Source of the DNA: a virus
Direction: 5' to 3' (one strand)
Virus record (IMG/VR): IMGVR_UViG_3300048033_001074
Coordinates: 1 to 38,308 of that record
Length of the DNA: 38,308 nucleotides
Shown here: in pieces, positions 4,968 to 18,784 of the stretch
How the letters are laid out: each line of letters opens with the position of its first letter
How positions within the stretch are numbered: the stretch's first letter is position 1
Position numbers and translations under genes: made by a program
Notes under the pieces: model-generated
Databases searched by the model: none
Told to the model about the DNA's origin: nothing
The model's input: the letters and a program-made list of their open reading frames with translations, nothing else

Positions 4968-5344
4968 TGTCGGATGATGTCCGTCATATATTCAATGTAC
5001 CTTCTAGTAGCGGTATGACATATGTCCTAGAAGCACATAAGGCATATAGCCAATTCTTTAGCGCAGGTGAAGCATACTTCTGGTCTATTAAAGAGACTGG
5101 TGTAGCAGTATCACCATTGTTTAGTTCTCCGACTGGCGCTTCAACCTGGCTGAAGTTTATGTCAGATAATGATATGATGGAACATAGAGTTTTTCAGTTT
5201 GGGTTGGATTGTCTGTGTTTTGTTGATGGTGAATATATCTGGTGGAATGATGAAAGACAGACGGTTGATGTAGATGATATTTACTATGACTACGATAGCG
5301 CAGTGAACTCAAAATTATTCCCCTGGATGAAAAATATGCCTTGA
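4967..5344 (+). CDS. small protein of unknown function (125 aa)
   Basis: The frame opens with a GTG overlapping the previous TAG (TAGTG). An internal ATG would give a product starting MTYVLEAHK, so the true start is not certain. The sequence is acidic and aromatic-rich, with FGLDCLCFVDGEYIWW in the last third. Its stop TGA (5342-5344) forms part of the TTGACA box of the next promoter. No family recognised. Confidence 0.55.
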   Translation: MSDDVRHIFNVPSSSGMTYVLEAHKAYSQFFSAGEAYFWSIKETGVAVSPLFSSPTGASTWLKFMSDNDMMEHRVFQFGLDCLCFVDGEYIWWNDERQTVDVDDIYYDYDSAVNSKLFPWMKNMP

Positions 5345-5369
5345 CAAAGATACGTCAATAGTGTATATT
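5341..5369 (+). promoter_or_regulatory. sigma70-type promoter
   Basis: TTGACA (5341-5346), 17 bases, TATATT (5364-5369). The -35 includes the stop codon of the preceding gene. It serves the 5406 and 5654 genes. Confidence 0.75.
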
Positions 5370-5405
5370 GGTTGTGTAATCAAAACTGAAAAAGGTAATG
5401 TGAAA

Positions 5406-8523: not shown

Positions 8524-9252
8524 ATGCCAAGAAGAAAAGATAGGGATACGTCTAAATCCCAGAACCAAAATGCTAAAACAAATTTTGGTATAGGCAAAAT
8601 CGAACCACTAACTGATACTCAGGCAGATGCGTTTGATGCGTTTGAGGATGAAGCAAATTTAATGTTGCATGGTGTTGCCGGCACAGGTAAAACTTTTATT
8701 GCACTTTACCTTTCCCTTAAAGATATTATCAATAAGGTAGAGCAGAAAAAAAAGGTATACATTGTCAGGTCAGTAGTACCGACAAGAGACATGGGGTTTT
8801 TGCCAGGAAATCAAAAAGAAAAGTCACGGGTTTATGAAGCACCTTACTATACAATTTGTAATGAGTTGTTTGGTCGAGGTGATGCATACGAAACTTTTAA
8901 ATCAAAAAATATTATAGAATTTATCACAACTTCATTTATTCGAGGTATCACCCTAGATAACTGTATTGTTATTGTAGATGAATGTCAGAACATGTCTGGC
9001 ATGGAACTACACTCTATTATGACCCGTGTTGGAGAAAACTGTAAGATTATTTTCTGCGGTGATACTCGACAGGATGACTTGACAAGTGTTCGTAAAAAAG
9101 AAGAGAGTGGTCTTTCAGAATTCATGCGTATTCTAAAAAGAATGGATTCATTTGAGTTTATTGAATTTCTTGAACAAGACATTGTGCGAAGCGATTTGGT
9201 TAAAGAGTATATTATTACAAGAAATGAGTTGGGACTTGACTGGGCTTCCTGA
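8524..9252 (+). CDS. phoH: PhoH-like P-loop ATPase (242 aa)
   Basis: A Walker A motif GVAGTGKT (residues 50-57), a PTRDMGFLPG segment (86-95) and a Walker B with IVDECQNM (150-157) followed by FCGDTRQ define the PhoH family, an RNA-helicase-like ATPase fold widespread in marine phages. Its job in infection is not settled; it has been linked to phosphate stress and to RNA processing. Length matches phage PhoH. The N-terminal 25 residues are basic and probably disordered. AAGGG lies about 11 bases before the ATG. Confidence 0.93.
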   Translation: MPRRKDRDTSKSQNQNAKTNFGIGKIEPLTDTQADAFDAFEDEANLMLHGVAGTGKTFIALYLSLKDIINKVEQKKKVYIVRSVVPTRDMGFLPGNQKEKSRVYEAPYYTICNELFGRGDAYETFKSKNIIEFITTSFIRGITLDNCIVIVDECQNMSGMELHSIMTRVGENCKIIFCGDTRQDDLTSVRKKEESGLSEFMRILKRMDSFEFIEFLEQDIVRSDLVKEYIITRNELGLDWAS

Positions 9253-9318: not shown

Positions 9319-10050
9319 ATGTTTAATCATGTTGGGTTGCCTAAAGACCTACCAAATCTAAAATCTGTATCGCATAATAAGAAGCGATATTATCTTTCGC
9401 CAGAAGAAGATATCTTTCCATCAATGACTACGGTCCTTGGTGATTTGAAGAAAGACGTTATTATGAAATGGCGTGAACGTGTAGGTGAAGAAGAAGCAAA
9501 CCGTATTTCTACTCAAGCCGCACGGCGTGGTACGTCTGTTCACCATATGTGTGAAGATTACATCAACAATCTTCCTTACTTGAACAGACGTATGCCACAT
9601 GAGATTGAGATGTTTAATAGCATCAAACCAATCTTGGATGAACGTATCAATAACGTTCATTGTCAAGAACTTGCTATGTGGTCTCATCACCTAGGTGTTG
9701 CAGGTCGTGTAGATTGTATTGCAGAATTTGATGGTGTGTTATCTATCATTGACTTTAAGACTTCTAGCAAACCTAAGCGTGAAGAGTGGATTGATAACTA
9801 CTTTATGCAAGAAGCAGGATATGCAATCATGTACGAAGAGAGAACAGGTATTCCAGTCTCTCAGTTAGTAACGATAATTGCTGTTGAGCAAGGTGGTGAA
9901 CCTCAAGTGTTTGTTCAAAAACGTGACACATGGGCGAAACCCCTCTTATCTGCGATTAAAGCATATAAGGAAAAGAACAACCATGAACAAGTTACTGAAA
10001 GCATTCGTCATAAGTTCGACAATGTTGTTCCTGGGTATATCGCAGTCTAG
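9319..10050 (+). CDS. RecB-like PD-(D/E)XK exonuclease (243 aa)
   Basis: The core GRVDCIAEFDGVLSIIDFKTS (split here at residues about 133-153) supplies the aspartates and the D-F-K of a PD-(D/E)XK nuclease, with a helix carrying Q-E/A-x-Y-A (MQEAGYAIMYEE) behind it as in RecB/Cas4-like enzymes. The N terminus has the RRGTSVHHMCEDYI helix seen in the same group. T4-like marine phages carry such a single-domain exonuclease among their DNA metabolism genes. It has its own promoter and GGAG site. Its last 68 bases are overlapped in another frame by the 9983 gene. Confidence 0.85.
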   Translation: MFNHVGLPKDLPNLKSVSHNKKRYYLSPEEDIFPSMTTVLGDLKKDVIMKWRERVGEEEANRISTQAARRGTSVHHMCEDYINNLPYLNRRMPHEIEMFNSIKPILDERINNVHCQELAMWSHHLGVAGRVDCIAEFDGVLSIIDFKTSSKPKREEWIDNYFMQEAGYAIMYEERTGIPVSQLVTIIAVEQGGEPQVFVQKRDTWAKPLLSAIKAYKEKNNHEQVTESIRHKFDNVVPGYIAV

Positions 10051-10432
10051 TGCTGATACGATTGAATTATCTCAAGAAGAACTAGAACACTTCAAAGATA
10101 ACTATTTCGAAGATGTTGACGGAGACCCAACACCACAGAACATGCCACCAATAACTTTGACAAACCTTGAGTTTTGTAATTCTATTGAAGTTGTGAAATA
10201 CAATCTAGTAAATGAGTATAACGAAGTTGCAGTTGCAACTGGTGAGTTTACTCAGACGATTATAAATCGCAATGGGCAAATGGTGCAGAAGACTGGCAGA
10301 TTATATTTCTACAGCGACCCAACGGCATTAGAGTATACGGTTATTGTAGAGTATGAAGAAGATGGTATCGCATGTGTCATTGGTAGCGGCAAAAGATTTC
10401 GCCCCTATTCAGATGATGAAATTGAAATGTGA
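9983..10432 (+). CDS. exported protein of unknown function (149 aa)
   Basis: The ATG at 9983 starts a clear signal peptide (MNKLLKAFVISSTMLFLGIS, cleavage after QSSA near residue 24), with AAGGA upstream; the longer frame from 9878 is not needed. The signal-peptide region lies wholly inside the end of the exonuclease gene in another frame. The mature protein has two cysteines (in LEFCNSIEV and DGIACVIG), likely a disulfide, and looks beta-rich. A periplasmic role is probable; the exact one is unknown. A late promoter and the tmRNA follow at once. Confidence 0.7.
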   Translation: MNKLLKAFVISSTMLFLGISQSSADTIELSQEELEHFKDNYFEDVDGDPTPQNMPPITLTNLEFCNSIEVVKYNLVNEYNEVAVATGEFTQTIINRNGQMVQKTGRLYFYSDPTALEYTVIVEYEEDGIACVIGSGKRFRPYSDDEIEM

Positions 10433-10440
10433 TATAAATA
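10433..10440 (+). promoter_or_regulatory. T4-type late promoter of the tmRNA
   Basis: Exact TATAAATA overlapping the stop of the 9983 gene. The transcript would start near 10446, just before the acceptor piece of the tmRNA. Confidence 0.8.
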
Positions 10441-10446
10441 AATTAC

Positions 10447-10808
10447 AATCGTTGATACAAGACGAAAGATATCTGGACCCGGGTGCGATACCCGGCACCT
10501 CCACCATAACTACACTTGAGCGGTTGGCTTAGTGCAAGTAAGGACTCGAAAGAGAATAGCCTTAAGTGTAGTTATGATGGGGGTGAAATAGGTTCGACAG
10601 GTGTTTGTAGTGGCGAGTAGATTGTCGTGTTGACCTACGTTATTCGGTCAAAAATTATAGTTGCAAACGATAACTATATGCCAGAAATGGCACTTGCTGC
10701 CTGATAAAGGTTAGCGGAGTTTCGCAAACTGCACTTGGCAACAGAAGCAGTTTGCACCCAACGGGTGATGCCGTAATACATCCGTGTAGACCAACGGTTA
10801 GTCTGCAA
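10447..10808 (+). ncRNA. ssrA: circularly permuted (two-piece) tmRNA
   Basis: The 3' acceptor half comes first: T arm CCGGG-TGCGATA-CCCGG, then CACCTCC (10496-10502), A and CCA (to 10506). The 5' half follows from 10579: GGGGGTG (10579-10585) pairs with CACCTCC, with G3-U70 as in alanine acceptors, then AAATAGGTTCGACA. Between them 10507-10578 folds into a long hairpin (13-bp perfect stem, 10505-10517 with 10564-10576) that must be removed. A hairpin TTGACC/GGTCAA (10630-10651) precedes the tag. The resume codon GCA is at 10663 and the tag reads ANDNYMPEMALAA, ending TGA TAA (10702-10707). A 9-bp helix (10724-10732 with 10747-10755) and smaller hairpins follow. The 5' and 3' ends given are estimates. 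The T loop has G instead of the second T. Confidence 0.93.
10663..10707 (+). other. tmRNA tag reading frame
   Basis: GCA resume codon at the start of the loop of hairpin TATAGTT/AACTATA (10656-10678). The frame gives ANDNYMPEMALAA with tandem stops. The ALAA end is the usual signal for ClpXP-type proteases, and AND at the start is typical of alphaproteobacterial tags. Confidence 0.9.
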
Positions 10809-10839: not shown

Positions 10840-11061
10840 ATGTCTAATAAAAACCCGTTCGAAATCCGCTCAGAAATGATGGCACTTGCAAAAGATTACA
10901 TGGACCAACAGGTTCAAATGAATATGCATTTTGCACAACAAGCAGTAGAGCAAGGTAAGAAATCTATAGAAGAAGCACAAGAAATGTGCAAGATGTATTC
11001 TATGGAAGACCTTATGGAAAAAGCAAAAGAGATGTATTCTTTCGTTTCTAAGAAAGATTAA
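10840..11061 (+). CDS. small helical protein downstream of tmRNA (73 aa)
   Basis: AAAGGAG lies 7 bases before the ATG. The protein starts MSNKNPFEIRSEMMALAKDY and is helical and methionine-rich throughout. A small protein with a similar NPFEIR beginning is known to me from marine T4-like phages, with no function. It shares the tmRNA transcript and is followed by the convergent end of the minus-strand lysis block, with no clear terminator between (11062-11094). Confidence 0.75.
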   Translation: MSNKNPFEIRSEMMALAKDYMDQQVQMNMHFAQQAVEQGKKSIEEAQEMCKMYSMEDLMEKAKEMYSFVSKKD

Positions 11062-12313: not shown

Positions 12314-12596
12314 TCTTTTTCTCCAATTGCTTAATTCGTTCTTCTAGTTCATCAATCTTTGATGTTATCTTAGGGTAGTTTCTACGCCATGCGTTAGGGT
12401 CATTCTGTAACCAGGTCCAACCCCAACGAATTGCAAGATGTTCTAGTAGTGCATCAAACTTTGTTACACCCCATGTCGCCATTCTCGTATCTTTAAACCA
12501 GAACAAGAATGCCGCACCAAATAGAGAACCTGCTATACTAGTGTAAATCCAGAGACGGTCGCCCGCCATCTGTTGTATCATTTCCCACATTGACAA
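12306..12596 (-). CDS. membrane protein with cytoplasmic coiled tail (96 aa)
   Basis: A single hydrophobic helix (about residues 15-34) is followed by ALLEHLAIRWGWTWLQND and a short C-terminal coiled coil (KIDELEERIKQLEKK). I associate this pattern with marine T4-like phages where it is of unknown function. It starts 19 bases before the end of the lipase gene. Holin or antiholin activity is possible given the neighbours. Confidence 0.6.
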   Translation of the reverse strand: MSMWEMIQQMAGDRLWIYTSIAGSLFGAAFLFWFKDTRMATWGVTKFDALLEHLAIRWGWTWLQNDPNAWRRNYPKITSKIDELEERIKQLEKKND

Positions 12597-13336
12597 TCGC
12601 CTCCGCAGTTATTATCACTCTTACATTCAGTGTACTTGACATAGTATTTCATACTATGGTCATAGAACCCATCAAAGAATTGAAACTTCTTTATTGCGGA
12701 CCATCTTCCTCTGAGTTTATCTTTGAAGCGTTGCCAGTAGGTAAGGGTTCTAATATTTCCGTAGTGATTGATGTATCTTGCCACGCTGTGGTGACGATAT
12801 CCAAGCAATAGGAATGGGACGGTCGGTACAGCGTCATTGTTATTAACATGCCTGTAATGAGTGATATTACAATTTTGAACAAACTTTTTACTCCCTACTC
12901 TAGGCGAACCGTATGTATATAAGCACTTTACTTCTTCCTGTATTCTGCTTGCAAATATAGTTGCCATTGCTCCACCCAACGAATGTCCCGTAATAAAGAG
13001 TGGTCTTGTCTTTGGTCTTTTTTCTAGTATTACTTCAAGTTTACCCCAGACTTTATCAACTTCAGTTTGGAATCCATTATGCACGAACCCACCGATTTGA
13101 CCTCTGTCTGGAATAGCATTCAGGTCTGCCGCCAAGTCACTCATTTGTGTTGGTTCAGTACCTCTGAATGCTACTACCATCTCATGTTTATTTGACACCA
13201 CATAGCATTGGGCACCATCAATGTCGATGAATTTAATGCTAGTATATCCTAGCGATTTGAACTTAGCAGTACCTTCTTCTTTTTGTAAGTATGCCGTCTC
13301 TGCCATAACAGCCATGCGGTGACAATTTTCTAACAT
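12578..13336 (-). CDS. class 3 lipase (alpha/beta hydrolase, 252 aa)
   Basis: The nucleophile motif GHSLGG (S119), VAFRGT (oxyanion-hole strand, residues 55-60), TYGSPRVGS (141-149), D168 in NNNDAVPTVP, and H227 in YDHSMKYY make a complete Ser-Asp-His triad of the lipase_3 family. Such enzymes hydrolyse acylglycerols or phospholipids. No signal peptide is seen, so it probably acts from inside or after membrane leakage. The last 16 residues are cysteine-rich (CKSDNNCGGDCQCGK), unusual for the family and possibly a metal site. It sits between the EF-hand and small membrane proteins, suggesting a part in membrane breakdown at lysis. Confidence 0.88.
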   Translation of the reverse strand: MLENCHRMAVMAETAYLQKEEGTAKFKSLGYTSIKFIDIDGAQCYVVSNKHEMVVAFRGTEPTQMSDLAADLNAIPDRGQIGGFVHNGFQTEVDKVWGKLEVILEKRPKTRPLFITGHSLGGAMATIFASRIQEEVKCLYTYGSPRVGSKKFVQNCNITHYRHVNNNDAVPTVPFLLLGYRHHSVARYINHYGNIRTLTYWQRFKDKLRGRWSAIKKFQFFDGFYDHSMKYYVKYTECKSDNNCGGDCQCGK

Positions 13337-18386: not shown

Positions 18387-18548
18387 ATGACAGATGAAAA
18401 TGAAAGCAAAGAGTATGTGAAGAATACCAAGTCTAAGGTTATTCCTAAGACATACTTTGCAACAAAAGAGGACTTGGATAACCCAAGAATGAGACACGGT
18501 AGTTCTCAACTTGGTGTTTATAAAAATATTAAAACCTGGAGAAAATAA
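18387..18548 (+). CDS. small basic protein (53 aa)
   Basis: A short frame fills the gap between thyX and the gp33-like gene, ending TAATG with a one-base overlap. The product (start MTDENESKEYVKN, end NIKTWRK) is basic and polar. In T4 the small dsbA gene occupies the place just before 33, but I see no clear sequence similarity. The ribosome site is weak. Confidence 0.5.
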   Translation: MTDENESKEYVKNTKSKVIPKTYFATKEDLDNPRMRHGSSQLGVYKNIKTWRK

Positions 18549-18784
18549 TGCAAGAAGAGACTATTGTGGTAGATATGAAGCGGGAAGAGTTTAGTGTAAA
18601 ACTGAAGCAATATGTCACGGAAATGAACATGGCATATATTGATGCAGTTATTAAGTTGTGTGAAGAAAATGGTCTTGAATATGAGCAGGTTCCTAGTCTC
18701 ATTGATGCAAAAACTAAGATGTTCATTGAAAATGAATATCGTGAAATGAACTATTTGCCTAGGGTTGCACAGTTACCACTATGA
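18548..18784 (+). CDS. 33: gp33-like late transcription co-activator (78 aa)
   Basis: The core MNMAYIDAVIKLCEENGLEYEQVPSLID (residues about 28-55, quoted in outline) resembles the short gp33 of marine T4-like phages: a helix ending in AV..C...NGL.....V..LI. It stands directly before gp59 and gp32, as in T4 (33-59-32). In T4, gp33 binds RNA polymerase and links late promoters to the sliding clamp. At 78 residues it is shorter than T4 gp33 (112). Sequence similarity is modest; synteny carries much of the call. Confidence 0.65.
   Translation: MQEETIVVDMKREEFSVKLKQYVTEMNMAYIDAVIKLCEENGLEYEQVPSLIDAKTKMFIENEYREMNYLPRVAQLPL

Follow-up and report, generated by a model that had tools for sequence, protein, structure and literature searches.

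The locus examined here raises the question of whether a marine phage encodes a working tmRNA of its own, when in infection such an RNA would be made and what it would do. The window, by which we mean the whole stretch of DNA analyzed, is a 38,308-base virus contig and a fragment of a marine T4-like phage. Its positions 10447-10808 had been read, from the sequence alone, as a circularly permuted tmRNA.

A complete permuted tmRNA gene of the alphaproteobacterial type

ARAGORN calls a permuted tmRNA at this locus, with the tag ANDNYMPEMALAA followed by the stops TGA TAA. The search with Rfam covariance models that had been proposed as a check gave matches far above the gathering cut-offs for both RF04321 (130.8 bits versus 47, E 1.5e-25) and the alphaproteobacterial model RF01849 (106.4 bits versus 50, E 2.8e-28). 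Since ARAGORN agrees with two Rfam models that both score well above the threshold, the identity of the locus as a phage-borne, permuted, two-piece tmRNA of the alphaproteobacterial type is well supported.

The original prediction was borne out in the gene order, with the acceptor half, which carries an encoded CCA and ends in CACCTCCACCA (10496-10506), lying before the 5' half that starts GGGGGTG at 10579. The 7-bp acceptor stem with a G3-U70 pair that it described (GGGGGUG with CACCUCC) is directly visible in the sequence, and the intact tag frame with tandem stops is the one reported by ARAGORN. This tag ends in ALAA, a hydrophobic residue plus AA, as expected for an alpha-type tmRNA. Only the 3' part of the predicted interval needs correction: the complete, circularly permuted, alpha-type gene extends from about 10446 to near 10757 (the RF01849 match reaches 10756), while 10761-10807 is a different structured RNA, treated below (Table 1). 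The precursor fold has a z of -5.4, with none of 100 shuffles folding as well, and in the minimum-energy structure the acceptor stem is continuous with a long helix in the spacer. The tag, in any codons, and the exact acceptor sequence had no match in 84,980 species genomes.

Table 1. Features of the window around the tmRNA gene
Feature	Position	Strand	Basis or detail
PhoH gene	8524-9252	+	phrog_170, E 5e-82
PD-(D/E)XK exonuclease gene	9319-10050	+	phrog_298, E 2.3e-81
Small exported-protein gene	about 9983-10432	+	last ORF before tmRNA
T4-type late promoter box TATAAATA (putative)	10433-10440	+	predicted RNA start about 10446
Acceptor piece	10446-10506	+	RF04321 and RF01849 alignments
T arm of acceptor piece	10479-10495	+	
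Acceptor 3' strand	10496-10502	+	discriminator A 10503; CCA 10504-10506
Spacer, 72 nt	10507-10578	+	predicted to be removed on maturation
Spacer helix arms	10507-10517 and 10564-10574	+	extend acceptor stem; covariation, fold
mRNA-like piece	10579-10757	+	Rfam alignments, fold
Acceptor 5' strand GGGGGTG	10579-10585	+	
Hairpins of mRNA-like piece	10630-10651; 3' hairpin about 10724-10755	+	
Tag frame ANDNYMPEMALAA	10663-10707	+	resume Ala codon GCA 10663; stops TGA TAA 10702-10707
Pseudoknot and hairpin RNA element	10761-10807	+	four bases past tmRNA
Stem 1 of element	10761-10764/10771-10774	+	
Knot stem of element	10767-10770/10779-10782	+	GATG:CATC
Hairpin of element	10785-10791/10801-10807	+	loop CAACGGTTA
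73-aa ORF, SNKNPFEIR family	10840-11061	+	next gene 3' of element
gp33 (T4 gene-33) homologue	18548-18784		phrog_254, E 1.1e-11

Gene neighborhood and known phage tmRNAs

Judged by its homologues of gp59, gp32, gp33, and gp6, the window phage is T4-like, in keeping with the earlier claim that the tmRNA is phage-borne; its gp6 is 40% identical to that of Melnitz and 38% to that of HTVC008M. The flanking genes named in that claim fared differently. A small exported-protein gene does lie upstream, but the downstream gene assigned to the T4 group has no convincing match to a known family (best PHROG E 0.02), and gp33 is found far from it. The order PhoH, exonuclease, small ORF, and tmRNA is common to the window, Melnitz, Mosig, and HTVC008M, which indicates that the tmRNA has long resided in these phages at a syntenic position. 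An esterase/lipase-like phage-borne gene is also present in the window on the minus strand (12578-13336; phrog_21992, E 1.3e-25).

The locus had been treated as novel, and here the original prediction does not hold. The Melnitz tmRNA was described as a two-piece form by Buchholz et al. 2022 (PMC9004378), whose count for phage genomes came to 53 tmRNAs of this form; 79 phage sequences are given in the paper on the tmRNA database (PMC11915505), and Mosig has an annotated tmRNA as well. The window tmRNA joins these known phage two-piece tmRNAs and is ordinary in kind. SsrA of Melnitz (a Methylophilales phage, MZ577097) is, like that of the window, permuted and alpha-type, occupies the same gene position, has TATAAATA in front and is accompanied by the downstream pseudoknot element, about 346 nt from the 5' half. 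Melnitz differs in its tag, ANDNYVPVDYALAA, in a glutamine riboswitch (RF01739) after the tmRNA, to which the window has no match, and in its spacer of 142 nt with an ORF-like stretch. In Melnitz gp33 is the next conserved gene after the tmRNA, whereas in the window it is not shortly downstream.

The Pelagibacter phages Mosig and HTVC008M also carry a permuted tmRNA (RF04321, 93.6 and 90.6 bits) in the same neighborhood, but have no TATAAATA before it and no downstream element that the pattern search could find, both of which the window has. The HTVC008M gene (KC465899.1:145161-145370) is unannotated in the public record. Compared with the Caulobacter-type alphaproteobacterial two-piece tmRNA (RF01849), the window gene has the same gene order, acceptor stem, and tag type but is phage-borne, has a late-promoter box, and has no SmpB in the same record.

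A conserved spacer helix and genes within the spacers of relatives

For 16 distinct phage permuted tmRNAs whose spacers are at least 25 nt long, we set the first ten spacer bases against the last ones at a fixed offset, and 148 of the 160 cells were paired. When the 3' arms were permuted among the sequences, a control that ignores kinship, the paired cells averaged 118 and never exceeded 136 in 20000 trials. The arms differ between relatives yet stay complementary, as in the window (TAACTACACT/AGTGTAGTTA) and its closest relative, L042 (TAAACACATT/AATGTGTTTA). At the level of covariation, the spacer helix is thus shown to extend the acceptor stem. L042 has a tag identical to that of the window, with differences in the frame that are solely synonymous or stop-to-stop. 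The L043 tag is ANDNTYALAA, and across about 90 phage genes the tags mostly end in LAA or MAA.

Some members of the group carry only parts of this arrangement. L038 and L039 have the pseudoknot element and a gene of the 73-aa type without a tmRNA directly before them, and L041 has, at 5193-5370, an mRNA-like half whose tag, ANDNFAPSEYALAA, is intact and which is followed by a tRNA-Trp gene. Neither an acceptor half, in the 14.8 kb searched, nor a promoter box was found in L041, and its half is either a truncated remnant or one that would use the acceptor piece of the host. The element of L039 without a tmRNA before it and the lone 5' half of L041 show that the tmRNA gene is non-essential to the group.

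The spacers of 24 distinct phage tmRNAs (e.g., L168, L157, L133, and L147) contain an ORF for a hydrophobic protein, mostly of 38-44 aa, with the motif WSICAD. This ORF usually stops one base before the GGGGG of the mature 5' half and has a pN/pS of 0.33. A second short ORF lies behind AAAGGAG directly after the CCA, within the spacer helix. Since the ribosome-binding site of the spacer gene is inside this helix, the arrangement suggests that translation and tmRNA folding may be mutually exclusive, and that a transcript would either be translated or become tmRNA. Other spacers, that of Melnitz included, contain a second small-protein family, and the spacer of the window is without a small-protein gene of the kind found in its relatives. 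A stretch related to the KYEDLC small-protein family of Melnitz-type spacers is present at 2064-2126 of the window, far from the tmRNA. In L146, on the minus strand, a spacer of about 575 nt holds an HNH/endonuclease VII-like endonuclease gene between the tmRNA halves, and the small hydrophobic gene is just upstream instead of in the spacer. The spacer features of these relatives, like the promoter features that follow, are unreported.

A T4-type late promoter box before the tmRNA

Exact copies of TATAAATA occur 12 times in the window versus 2.45 expected, a number reached by none of 100 shuffles, and several of them lie a few tens of bases 5' of structural genes, a placement that fits the expectation for a T4-type late promoter. 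The 92 distinct complete genes compared, all for permuted phage tmRNAs, are mutually related, so that the copies do not count as independent events; 79 of them have an exact TATAAATA 66-80 nt before the CCA end. TTGACA, with at most one mismatch and a spacing of 16-18 nt, accompanies it in 70 of the 79. Because TATAAATA is paired with this sigma-70 -35 box, most of these sites would be combined early and late promoters. The -35 box is missing from the window, L042, L043, and L107, which keep TATAAATA alone. A sigma-70 -10 box stands apart, beside TATAAATA, in L117, L220, and L208, so that TATAAATA seems to be conserved in its own right.

From the box in front of it we infer that the window tmRNA is expressed late. 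As an alternative reading of the same bases, the TG one base before this box would fit a sigma-70 promoter of the extended -10 type. A further candidate, TTGAAA-16-TACAAT at 10422-10449, was rejected as a sigma-70 promoter, as 3 such sites are present versus a chance expectation of 2.9, and the implied start would fall inside the tmRNA. For the Melnitz tmRNA, early expression was inferred from a sigma-70 promoter call (Buchholz et al., PMC9004378). On timing, the comparison yields a claim open to testing: in most of the phage permuted tmRNA genes found, a conserved T4 late box overlaps with an early box, and the clade of the window keeps the late box alone, in contrast to the early role suggested in print.

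Predicted function of the window tmRNA

We estimate a probability of roughly 0.85 that the window locus is a functional phage-encoded two-piece tmRNA, its function being predicted. This reading is based on the completeness of the acceptor stem with G3-U70, the encoded CCA, the resume codon, and the stops; on the covarying spacer helix and a gene position held in Melnitz, Mosig, and HTVC008M; on the dedicated promoter box at a fixed place in 79 of the 92 distinct, though mutually related, genes; and on the L042 tag, which is the same despite synonymous changes. A search for SmpB matched 10 of 14 control genomes but none of 9 phage records, three of which are complete phages (Melnitz, Phosso, and RcSimone-Hastad). 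With no SmpB in the phage records, and the window being a fragment, the tmRNA, if working, would have to use the SmpB of the host. Counting against the functional reading are the relatives that lack the gene (L039) or have just its 5' half (L041), the absence of TATAAATA before the HTVC008M and Mosig genes, and the fit of the window box to an extended -10 promoter.

The lack of a phage SmpB would also suit a decoy or inhibitor of the host tmRNA, one whose competition for SmpB, alanyl-tRNA synthetase, or ribosomes blocks host trans-translation to the benefit of the phage. There is a precedent in phage DS6A, whose tmRNA without a CDS inhibits the endogenous tmRNA in E. coli (PMC11915505). However, an intact tag frame with tandem stops, and LAA or MAA ends across about 90 genes, would be needless for a decoy, and we consider this explanation improbable.

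tmRNA genes are frequent integration sites, and the locus could be a passive remnant of host DNA, for example one that an ancestral temperate phage took along together with its attachment site. Buchholz et al. (PMC9004378) have proposed exchange with a temperate phage. A passive remnant is nonetheless very improbable here, given that both halves and all pairings are intact, that one gene position is held in four phage lineages, and that a phage-type promoter stands at a fixed spacing in most relatives.

Trans-translation works on stalled ribosomes rather than on chosen proteins, which, together with TATAAATA standing alone in the window, L042, L043, and L107, makes early tagging of selected host proteins for amino-acid recycling equally hard to credit, even though 70 of the 79 relatives with TATAAATA have the near-match to TTGACA. 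That role was proposed for Melnitz from the sigma-70 promoter call, and both roles, keeping translation going and marking host proteins, are in print for that phage (PMC9004378).

As a functional two-piece tmRNA, the window RNA would be transcribed by host RNA polymerase from about 10446 at the T4-type late promoter and would fold with the spacer helix extending the acceptor stem. Two-piece cleavage is the fate expected from the gene form: RNase P and 3' trimming would yield two pieces that remain base-paired, the acceptor piece ending at 10506 and the mRNA-like piece starting at 10579. The host alanyl-tRNA synthetase would charge this RNA through G3-U70, and host SmpB would deliver it to stalled ribosomes. 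The ribosome would resume at GCA 10663, add ANDNYMPEMALAA, and terminate, which would free the ribosome and mark the peptide for ClpXP-type proteases. The likely gain would be more ribosome recycling late in infection as cut mRNAs build up.

A pseudoknot RNA element downstream of the tmRNA

The different RNA at 10761-10807 consists of a putative pseudoknot and a hairpin with a conserved loop of the YAHGGTTA type. The pattern GATGCCNNAATACATCC matches in at least 119 viral contigs. In the 93 distinct copies left after removal of chance matches, two flanking bases are Watson-Crick paired in all, with four pair types. Changes on both sides of a pair were found in 60 cells of alignment A2 (21 in shuffles) and in 33 cells of alignment A3 (8.1 in shuffles), and no shuffle reached either number; both alignments are ungapped, and the GATG:CATC knot stem, being fixed by the search pattern, is outside their test. 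The knot was therefore tested by a separate scan for copies that differ both at the first base of one strand and at the last base of its partner. This gave 77 distinct matches, 53 of them with the hairpin and loop, and the knot stem was fully complementary in 53/53. Because every hairpin-bearing altered copy keeps this complementarity, the covariation is strong evidence for an H-type pseudoknot. Among 150 distinct element copies there are 14 knot-stem sequences, although that list requires pairing and the test is the 53/53. Compensatory changes are found in all three helices. The element was also considered as a tRNA half and rejected, as ARAGORN finds no tRNA there and the pseudoknot accounts for the conserved bases.

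A phage tmRNA is present within 1 kb upstream on the same strand in 75 of the 119 copies that have 1 kb of upstream sequence, whereas this is so for 12% of positions picked at random in those loci. The element abuts the tmRNA in the window, L334, and L188 and sits amid tRNA genes in L336, L245, and L197. A gene with a ribosome-binding site follows within 130 nt in 100 of 150 copies, mostly 65-80 nt from the element start. In these 100 cases the next gene is gp33 (41), an exported protein (15), the SNKNPFEIR family (13), or others, so that the SNKNPFEIR ORF of the window is one among several gene families found 3' of the element. A tie to gp33 alone was rejected, since the element precedes a different gene in the window and relatives. 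The single copy per genome and the varied downstream genes argue against a regulon-type riboswitch. We consider it quite probable that this second phage RNA constitutes a new family in marine T4-like phages; it would be either the 5' leader of the next gene, mostly gp33 (the late-transcription coactivator), or a small stable RNA by the tmRNA.

Rfam 15 has no match to the element in the window at E up to 10 or in the loci of 16 relatives at E up to 1. Set against Rfam 15 and the open-access literature the element is undescribed; Ocean-VI, which is given without an Rfam number in PMC2864571, may be the same RNA. Widespread in marine phages, the element is a strong candidate to be a phage RNA family that is both new and common. 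With a covariance model, 11 phage records of 38-204 kb yield exactly one copy each, and one copy in the viral contigs is at L002:3355-3404. Melnitz, the sole cultured phage found with the element, has one copy and would be an immediate testbed. In L147, L252, and L330, the pseudoknot module occurs in tandem before a single hairpin.
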